Part shown: one piece after another, positions 14,027 through 35,636 of the stretch | How the letters are laid out: the number at the start of each line of letters is the position of its first letter | Numbering within the stretch: position 1 is the stretch's first letter | Assembly (NCBI GenBank): GCA_017536635.1 | Contig: JAFXHA010000071.1 | Location: 1 to 36,958 of the forward strand | Direction of reading: 5' to 3' | Source of the DNA: Clostridia bacterium | GTDB lineage: Bacteria; Bacillota; Clostridia; Oscillospirales; CAG-272 | DNA: 36,958 nt | Notes under the pieces: generated by a model | The model's database searches: none | The model's input: only the letters and a program-made list of their open reading frames with translations | What the model was told of the DNA's origin: nothing | Made by a program: the position numbers and the translations under genes

Positions 14027-14371
14027 CTATTTCTTATCCTTTGCGGTATTAATAGATGCAATCAAAATACGACGTATTGTTCCGCATTGATTATAAAGGT
14101 CAGCAGAGCATTCTCTGCTCAAGATCTCAGACTTCGCAAAAAGCTCCAACCAATATTCGGTTTCATAGCACTCCTTCAATGCGATCTGCAATTTTGCAAT
14201 AAAATCAGGCTTGCCATGTGCATAGTTTGCTTCGTGAATATTGGCACCAATTGACGTAGCAGAGCGCTCCAACTGATTAACGAGTGAACCGTGTCCTTTG
14301 ACATTTTCACAAAGTTTTATAATTTTAATAGCAAAATCCATAGATAGATCTACAAGCTTGTTCTCTTTCAA
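14027..14371 (-). CDS. four-helix-bundle protein (23S rRNA intervening-sequence family)
   Basis: A 114-aa all-helical protein of the S23/IVP four-helix-bundle family. Diagnostic motifs are RSATSIGANIHEANYAHGKPDF and LKECYETEYWLEL. Family members occur inside 23S rRNA intervening sequences and beside arrays of small palindromes, but their biochemical role is unknown. I favour a TTG start at 14371, because AGAGGTGAT lies just upstream and the resulting MKENKLVDLS N-terminus fits the family. The next ATG is at 14341. Its 5' leader is the hairpin array at 14401-14559. Confidence 0.88.
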   Translation of the reverse strand: MKENKLVDLSMDFAIKIIKLCENVKGHGSLVNQLERSATSIGANIHEANYAHGKPDFIAKLQIALKECYETEYWLELFAKSEILSRECSADLYNQCGTIRRILIASINTAKDKK

Positions 14372-14400
14372 AAATATCACCTCTGAATATGTAAAATGAA

Positions 14401-14559
14401 ATATTGCTGCGCAATATGAAATAATCCTTCGGATTATGAAATATTTTGCCTTACGGCAAAATGTGAAATAAAATAAATCCCTCATACGCCGCAGCGTATT
14501 TCATAGCGTAAGCTATTTCATATGCCGAAGGCATATTTCACAAATCCCGCGAGGGATTT
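14401..14559. repeat. array of seven different small palindromes separated by TGAAAT/ATTTCA
   Basis: Seven short hairpins follow one another: 14401-14417, 14421-14437, 14443-14462, 14484-14499, 14503-14516, 14520-14536 and 14542-14559. Stems are 5-8 bp, loops 3-4 bases. The stem sequences all differ, while the spacers are the same (TGAAAT reading plus in the first half, ATTTCA in the second), so the array is itself roughly palindromic. A longer pair, AATAAATCCCTC near 14472-14483 and GAGGGATTTATT near 14551-14562, could enclose three of the hairpins. It lies between tRNA-Thr and the four-helix-bundle gene and forms that gene's leader. Confidence 0.9.
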
Positions 14560-14568
14560 ATTTCATTG

Positions 14569-14600: not shown

Positions 14601-14676
14601 TGGAGCTGGTGATGTGACTCGAACACACGACCTGCTGATTACGAATCAGCTGCACTACCGACTGTGCTACACCAGC
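14601..14676 (-). tRNA. tRNA-Thr (anticodon CGT)
   Basis: Minus-strand cloverleaf with perfect acceptor stem GCTGGTG/CACCAGC, anticodon loop TTCGTAA (anticodon CGT), T loop TTCGAGT and encoded CCA (14601-14603). Confidence 0.96.
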
Positions 14677-35124: not shown

Positions 35125-35153
35125 TTGACAACAACAAAAAAATATGTTACAAT
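35125..35153 (+). promoter_or_regulatory. strong sigma-A promoter of the candidate ncRNA
   Basis: TTGACA (35125-35130), 17-base spacer, TACAAT (35148-35153). The expected start at 35160-35161 is exactly where the closing stem of the downstream inverted repeat begins. Confidence 0.88.
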
Positions 35154-35159
35154 AACCTT

Positions 35160-35375
35160 GCCAAACAAATTTAATCGTTAGAATCAAAGGTATCTTTTTC
35201 TTTATGGGATAGTTATACCTTTTTTTAGCCATAATCATTTTAGAATTTGGTAAAAACGCAAATTCCACTTAAATAATGATTATGGTATAGATACCCTGAT
35301 TCTATTTAAATTTGTTTGGCGACAATCGGGGTTTGCGTTTTTCGTGCGTCGGCTTCGGTTGGCGCACTTTTTATT
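35160..35375 (+). ncRNA. candidate roughly 215-nt structured RNA
   Basis: No reading frame fits, but the sequence folds into one long interrupted stem. Pairs are 35160-35174 with 35306-35320 (15 bp, perfect), 35180-35186 with 35297-35303, 35189-35195 with 35289-35295, 35229-35239 with 35275-35285 (11 bp) and 35243-35249 with 35259-35265. A 33-base bulge sits on the 5' side (35196-35228). A terminator ends it at 35344-35372. The closed ends, long rod shape and side bubble recall 6S RNA, but I do not recognise conserved 6S sequences. A MITE with terminal inverted repeats is the main alternative. Confidence 0.65.
35344..35372 (+). terminator. UUCG-capped terminator of the candidate ncRNA
   Basis: A 10-bp stem GTGCGTCGGC/GTTGGCGCAC (35344-35353 with 35358-35367, including three G-U pairs) around a TTCG tetraloop, followed by TTTTTATTTTA. 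It separates the RNA from the HTH gene, so the gene would be expressed only by read-through or an unseen promoter. Confidence 0.85.
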
Positions 35376-35405: not shown

Positions 35406-35636
35406 ATGAAATCACTCAAACACAGCATATCTATATCAATAAAAATAAAAGAACACAGAGAAAAATCGGGATTAACGCAAGCTGAATTTGGCAAATTATT
35501 AGGGGTTTCGGCACAAGCAGTTTATAAATGGGAGCAAGACTTATGCTATCCCGATATTACTATACTTCCCTTGCTTGCAAATATCCTTGGGTGCTCGATA
35601 GACGAATTCTTTCAAAATGAATATAATAAATTTTAA
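35406..35636 (+). CDS. small XRE-type HTH regulator
   Basis: A 76-aa protein that is almost only a Cro/C1-type helix-turn-helix. Residues 12-66 include KEHREKSGLTQAEFGKLLG and VSAQAVYKWEQDLCYPDI, and a short tail ends at NKF. AAGGA lies nine bases before the ATG at 35406. It follows the candidate ncRNA by about 30 bases and has no obvious promoter of its own. It has no effector domain, so it probably binds DNA as a dimer; its target is unknown. Confidence 0.88.
   Translation: MKSLKHSISISIKIKEHREKSGLTQAEFGKLLGVSAQAVYKWEQDLCYPDITILPLLANILGCSIDEFFQNEYNKF

Follow-up and report, generated by a model that had tools for sequence, protein, structure and literature searches.

Riboswitch leaders that act by terminating transcription have their own promoter, a compact conserved fold and a terminator and an antiterminator that share bases, and they occur in several copies per genome. 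In trp-type attenuators, alternating partners choose between terminator and antiterminator. MITEs are short dispersed units bounded by an inverted repeat. In the HMP-PP and guanidine-IV riboswitches, conserved bases at the terminator tip join the sensor (PMC8632094).

The DNA analysed here (the window) is a stretch of 36,958 nucleotides from a Clostridia bacterium, in which a structured RNA is predicted immediately before a gene for a small HTH protein. Comparison of sequences leads us to read this RNA, with a probability of about 0.7, as a cis-acting transcription attenuator that serves as 5' leader to the HTH gene and belongs to a family not described so far. The openly accessible literature consulted does not name this RNA.

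Promoter, fold and competing pairings of the window copy

The first-pass annotation of the window had placed a near-consensus promoter ahead of a 15-bp perfect stem starting at 35160, and direct reading bore this out to the base. The sigma-A-type promoter, TTGACA-N17-TACAAT, occupies 35125-35153 on the forward strand (-35 element 35125-35130, -10 element 35148-35153). Six nucleotides separate TACAAT from G35160, which opens the closing stem (P1) and is the predicted transcription start. All 15 base pairs of P1 (35160-35174 with 35306-35320) are part of the minimum-energy fold. The four nested blocks that had been described inside P1 were recovered as stems in the same fold. The two outermost of these (35179-35186/35297-35304 and 35189-35195/35289-35295) have 5' strands, within 35179-35195 and paired to 35289-35304, that vary in sequence and length among copies; they are followed by 35228-35239/35275-35286 and by an apical hairpin, 35243-35249/35259-35265. 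The unit closes, as annotated, with a UUCG-capped intrinsic terminator (35344-35367) and a U-run (35368-35372), the whole spanning 35344-35372. No forward-strand open reading frame of at least 60 amino acids lies wholly within the element, in agreement with the earlier view that no coding frame fits. The segment 35155-35380 folds at -71.2 kcal/mol compared to -40.9 kcal/mol (sd 3.9) for dinucleotide shuffles (z -7.7), and none of 200 shuffles was as good.

Two further pairings had been overlooked in the first reading. The apical A-rich strand AAAAACGCAAATTCC (35252-35266) is complementary over 15 nt to the tail GGGGTTTGCGTTTTT (35328-35342), with a duplex energy of -17.6 kcal/mol; the two strands are the 5' and 3' halves of a predicted pseudoknot. 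The linker and the start of the tail (35321-35333) contain a strand, 35323-35333, that can pair with 35351-35361 inside the terminator and would thereby form an antiterminator in place of the terminator. The antiterminator and pseudoknot strands have six bases in common. The apical hairpin, whose 5' strand (35243-35249) rivals the tail for 35259-35265, has an energy of only -5.7 kcal/mol alone. Folds of the whole RNA with the terminator (-69.5 kcal/mol) and with the antiterminator (-70.0 kcal/mol) differed by 0.5 kcal/mol in a calculation restricted to pairings other than the pseudoknot. The pairings thus make up a chain: the apical hairpin competes with the pseudoknot, the pseudoknot with the antiterminator, and the antiterminator with the terminator.

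Since the tail and the terminator each have two competing partners, the most plausible reading of the RNA is a leader of the riboswitch type that works by transcription attenuation. Transcription would begin at the base of P1, and as the RNA grew the apical hairpin would form, P1 would close and the linker and tail would then emerge. The pseudoknot is assigned to the OFF state on the strength of the chain of alternative partners. In that predicted state, pairing of the tail with the apical strand would block the antiterminator, and the terminator would stop the transcript at about 213 nt. In the putative ON state the tail would be free, the linker and tail would pair with the loop and arm of the terminator, and polymerase would continue into the gene; the downstream genes would be expressed by read-through only. 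The deciding signal would most likely be bound by the fold of the pseudoknot and P1 junction itself and be common to the copies of a genome. We put direct sensing by the RNA itself, rather than by a protein, a little short of even odds.

Conservation of the helices and distribution of the copies

Copies were collected as loci with a tail-like motif (at most three substitutions), a U-run and a -10-like hexamer 5-8 nt before a P1-type strand, defined as 12 nt complementary to the segment preceding the tail. This yielded 187 copies, while 278 motif places, mostly chance places, failed the stem test. A filter on 5' end and length passed 164 copies and dropped 23, and removal of near-duplicates left 143. 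Because P1 complementarity and the -10 box were used in picking the copies, the percent pairing of P1 is partly selected. The tail motif was likewise a selection criterion, whereas neither the apical strand nor the antiterminator entered the selection. When the distance between the -10 box and the base of P1 was left unscored (4 to 10 nt allowed), it was 6 nt in 59 of 65 copies, 7 nt in five and 11 nt in one; eight loci with a candidate yielded no kept copy in that set.

Comparison of the copies supports four helices: P1, a pseudoknot of 12-15 bp between the apical loop and the 3' tail, the terminator, and an antiterminator made from the linker and tail. Among 48 aligned copies (alignment A1), compensatory changes were found in four of the seven outer and all seven inner pairs of P1. 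These 48 copies paired in 98.0% of cells of the pseudoknot, with both sides changed in five of its 15 pairs, and in 97.7% of cells of the terminator. Sliding the partners by 1-3 columns lowered pairing from 96.9% to at most 48.4%. The match between the tail and the interior was reached by none of 50 shuffles in 133 of the 143 non-redundant copies, and in the other 10 at least one shuffle scored as high. Visual inspection of the listed rows showed the tail to match the apical A-rich strand best in each of them except L061, where a gapped search recovered this partner. The copies fall into two size classes, a long one of about 190-245 nt and a short one of about 150-195 nt, and the pseudoknot was retained in the short class with other sequences. 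For the apical hairpin, the competitor of the pseudoknot, pairing was seen in 91.1% of cells, and the case for it is weaker.

The antiterminator paired in 96.4% of cells (48 copies) and has one strongly covarying position (AU in 27 copies, UG in 11, UA in six, GC in two, with two misses). Two of five covariation measures did not exceed shuffles (double-change pairs, 156 of 500; further types, 133 of 500). The duplex of linker and terminator was better with a copy's own terminator than the mean obtained with the terminators of 40 sampled copies in 122 of 143 cases (mean -11.5 vs. -9.7 kcal/mol). In the short class, own pairing exceeded the mean of others in 20 of 24 RNAs (-14.4 vs. -11.9 kcal/mol), counts that include L204 as given although the script mis-parsed it. 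Antiterminator pairing in these 24 RNAs extended further, reaching 15 pairs in L202, and was quite different in sequence in distant copies such as L210-L213. The terminator hairpin was on average 4.1 kcal/mol stabler than a proxy for the antiterminator, namely the 3' domain folded while the base of the terminator arm was held unpaired; the two were within 3 kcal/mol in 49 of 143 copies and the order was reversed in 11. The lowest fold of the 3' domain was antiterminator-like in 78 of the 143. The first-pass annotation had proposed a structured RNA equipped with a promoter and a terminator of its own and had named covariation among homologues as a check. Compensatory changes were seen in P1, pseudoknot and antiterminator, and the proposal stands, with helices conserved through such changes. 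At the level of sequence, the comparison shows P1, the pseudoknot, the antiterminator, the terminator, the promoter spacing and the gene adjacency as features of the family.

The genome of the window contains four copies of the RNA. A BLAST search of 40 genomes, including this one, found matches in 28: itself, all 24 others of the genus and three of 15 others of the order. With a covariance model built from the 48 copies (R1, in which only P1 and terminator pairs were modelled), all 30 genomes of the genus, own included, matched at E 0.001 with 1 to 12 copies each. Under stricter filters, at which weak matches are lost, R1 matched 66 of 197 genomes in a draw from the order (1e-6), 63 of 291 from the class (1e-9) and one of 299 from the phylum (1e-9), the first two counts including the genome of the window and the last consisting of it. 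Since the phylum-wide draw gave this genome alone, the family looks confined to its class at E 1e-9 with those filters. A search of named genomes with a motif pattern gave at least 118 stretches. The 80 matches listed came from metagenome-assembled genomes titled Clostridia, Oscillospiraceae, Clostridiales, Ruminococcus or Ruminococcaceae, plus one Christensenella and one Bacillota, and the class is called Clostridia here on the strength of these record titles. The body sites recognisable in the titles of those 80 were gut. The first-pass annotation had proposed the element as a candidate for an undescribed one and had missed the other copies; it has no Rfam family and is one of many. If the attenuator reading is right, a family present in about a fifth of the class genomes sampled is absent from Rfam, and the signal to which its copies jointly respond would be a physiological cue shared among uncultured gut bacteria.

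The exact pattern was present in no stretch of the viral contigs searched, and a plasmid search gave no match. One match (132.9 bits) lies in an unverified fecal phage scaffold. This copy, L238 (phage record MT835503.1, 338-531), precedes an ORF whose first residues, by eye, resemble those of the ORF behind L179, and a further ORF after it is HNH/DUF262-like by eye. Tandem leaders about 50-230 nt apart were seen at L009, L026, L035, L043, L083, L096 and L181. In some of these a short ORF start lies between the two leaders, which suggests duplication of a leader plus gene start.

Downstream genes and exchange of leader bodies

In the window, the gene behind the RNA encodes a 76-amino-acid HTH_3 (XRE-type) protein (35406-35636, forward strand), with its ATG 33 nt past the U-run and AAGGA upstream. 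Among the 164 copies, a same-strand ORF start preceded by a ribosome-binding site followed the U-run within 40 nt in 110, within 100 nt in 129 and within 400 nt in 147; part of these ORF calls are in the wrong frame, for example at L045. The remaining 17 had no qualifying ORF within 400 nt, and some of them reach the contig end or precede a second copy. At random control positions the corresponding counts were 241 of 2928 (40 nt) and 1085 of 2928 (400 nt), and on the antisense side of the promoter 2 of 157 and 54 of 157. The RNA had been described as autonomous. It is probably a leader instead, because most copies directly precede a same-strand ORF and carry a competing antiterminator.

The leader also precedes genes for BspA-type surface proteins, lipoprotein-like ORFs, zinc-ribbon proteins, SLOG proteins and a DNA methylase. 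By simple ad hoc rules, 62 of 136 distinct downstream ORFs had a hydrophobic N-terminus compared to 60 of 235 background ORFs, and 25 of 136 had a lipobox-like pattern compared to 16 of 235; background ORFs were at least 100 amino acids long, a limit not applied to the downstream ORFs. Pfam searches of 126 of the 136 ORFs gave, among the best 25 of 78 families, 13 BspA-type LRR proteins, zinc ribbons, SHOCT, MazE-like, SLOG families, Big_2, dockerin and one EcoRI-type methylase. No common pathway was apparent among these best 25 families. A small cysteine-rich protein family (MSKNI...GFECCCDECDYYLLC) lies behind leaders L002, L003, L017, L028, L034, L041, L094, L106 and L145 and was traced to none of the best 25 of 78 Pfam families.

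The locus of the RNA and the HTH gene was compared with sibling loci. Among 22 sibling dacA places listed, dacA and PGI were adjacent in all 11 loci examined, and none of these 11 stretches contained the RNA or the HTH gene or had upp beside dacA. Eleven sibling upp loci were also without a copy of the RNA. The junction at which the RNA-HTH pair sits is therefore peculiar to this genome among those seen.

Similar leaders often stood before dissimilar genes. Copies from different loci formed 78 pairs with at least 85% identity, 77 of them with at least 150 nt of downstream sequence. Downstream similarity was absent in every forward frame and in DNA in 64 of the 77 and present in 13; among pairs at least 90% identical, 13 of 22 lacked it. 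A cruder earlier count, in which the ORF caller was partly wrong-framed, gave the same picture, with related genes in 6 of 45 similar-leader pairs. Identity of the promoter spacer was 51% in the 64 pairs with unrelated genes, 48% in 200 pairs of distant copies and 67% in the 13 pairs with related genes; for the -35 region the values were 66%, 57% and 75%, respectively. With the spacer near background and a slight excess at -35, the RNA is shared in such pairs and the promoter spacer is not.

The converse pattern was also observed. At L006, L033 and L039, all in genome G013, the 60-nt upstream flanks are 88-95% identical and the genes match, and the RNAs are 68-75% identical. L008 and L009 compared to L065 are 85-88% identical upstream, 60-62% in the RNA and 88-89% downstream, with the same terminator. 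Divergence in such mismatched-leader pairs starts between the -10 box and about 20 nt into the RNA. Exceptions were seen: L008 and L009 agree throughout, and many pairs with homologous genes have diverged in both the upstream region and the RNA. We infer that different rates alone do not account for both patterns, and recombination at conserved ends could account for them. The sensor behaves as an exchangeable module, because leaders of high similarity front unrelated genes and some matching pairs of promoter and gene carry different leaders. A more ambitious proposal, which we consider unlikely, is a class-wide riboswitch-type sensor of gut Clostridia whose module from P1 to the pseudoknot tail is swapped among resident promoters and genes, with a 5' edge at or just after the transcription start and possibly through conversion by an RNA-derived copy. 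Exchange of leader bodies, if it is what occurs, would be a natural experiment on regulatory RNAs passing from gene to gene.

Alternative explanations and described systems

At gathering score, Rfam matched only a tRNA and Gut-1 in the window, both away from the RNA. The two Gut-1 RNAs (RF01706) lie on opposite strands at 14369-14447 (+) and 14493-14568 (-), with 50.6 and 66.8 bits, and adjoin a tRNA at 14604-14676. When 12 loci (E of at most 5) and 17 loci (E of at most 2) were searched against Rfam 15, a single hit overlapped the RNA, to a miRNA model that scored 23 bits where the cut-off is 54. Nothing in the scan reached cut-off over the RNA, consistent with the earlier statement that no known class could be assigned. 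The T-box model had no match in the window or the sampled loci. An integron attC site, suggested by the GCCAAAC...GTTTGGC ends, was rejected because other copies have covarying ends of different sequence and because a promoter and a terminator persist. A U-A-U triple helix involving the U-run ahead of the apical loop was considered as a further, hypothetical element. A candidate leader peptide encoded in the loop, AUGGGAUA, is judged unlikely, since by eye copies such as L006 and L012 do not keep it.

The likeness to 6S RNA raised in the first-pass annotation did not hold up. A rod that is closed at its ends and contains an internal bubble is what a polymerase-binding RNA of that kind would present, yet RF00013 does not match here; its only match in this genome is below cut-off and elsewhere (G000:C46:6626-6846 (-), 33.9 bits vs. 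46.4) and is possibly the genome's 6S RNA. To our knowledge, neither a pseudoknot nor an antiterminator nor adjacency to genes is typical of 6S RNA, and we regard a 6S-like function as extremely improbable. In a MITE-like mobile element, P1 would be the terminal inverted repeat, and promoter and terminator would be carried along as passengers. In favour of this, the element is bounded by such a repeat and occurs in dispersed copies (1 to 12 in each genome of the genus), close copies sit at unrelated places, and the RNA is missing beside dacA-PGI in the 11 sibling loci. Dispersal together with target-site duplications had been named in advance as pointing to a MITE. The dispersal was found, but the copies differ by compensatory changes in their helices, which a plain MITE does not predict. 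The fixed distance to the -10 box, the fixed orientation to ORFs and the several cases of a different RNA between the same flanking promoter and gene also argue against mobility of this kind, which we judge quite improbable.

A trans-acting small RNA with a fixed terminator, behind which the genes would be passengers on read-through noise, fits the self-contained promoter and terminator, the on average greater strength of the terminator over the antiterminator, the retention of the RNA while the genes behind it differ, and the 17 copies lacking a qualifying ORF. The bias of strand and distance toward ORF starts speaks against it, as does the covarying pairing of linker and terminator, needless for a plain small RNA, and we find it improbable. 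The protein-controlled attenuator is a more serious candidate, though still doubtful; it overlaps the preferred reading and differs only in the sensor. Here an RNA-binding terminator or antiterminator protein would read the pseudoknot, and the copies would be the regulon of one regulator. The diversity of the downstream genes, with many exported proteins, is consistent with this, as is the weak conservation inside P1 compared to the strict sequence of the apical strand and tail; the apical strand covaries, however, so that base identity there can change. Under the preferred reading as a riboswitch-type leader, the RNA lies in cis before an ORF, a position from which regulation is predicted, and its terminator and antiterminator appear mutually exclusive on comparative and energetic grounds.

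The RNA shares with 6S RNA (RF00013) a rod-like, closed form of about 200 nt, and differs in having no match to that family, a leader position and a pseudoknot. Like a MITE, it is short, dispersed and enclosed by an inverted repeat, but it shows compensatory evolution, a fixed promoter distance and a fixed gene orientation. Alternating partners are common to this RNA and trp-type attenuators; here, no leader peptide was seen and one of the alternatives is a pseudoknot that reaches out from inside a closed stem. In the HMP-PP and guanidine-IV riboswitches (PMC8632094), conserved bases in the terminator tip are also engaged by a competing structure, whereas in this RNA they pair with the linker after P1, and it has no Rfam match. 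Most metabolite riboswitches control genes of a shared pathway, in contrast to the genes found here, which belong to no obvious one. The resemblance to riboswitch leaders nevertheless extends to the 5' leader position, the RNA's own promoter, the compact fold, the terminator and antiterminator with shared bases, and the multiple copies; what sets it apart is a leader with no Rfam class that stands before genes of no obvious common pathway and appears to be swapped between unrelated ones.
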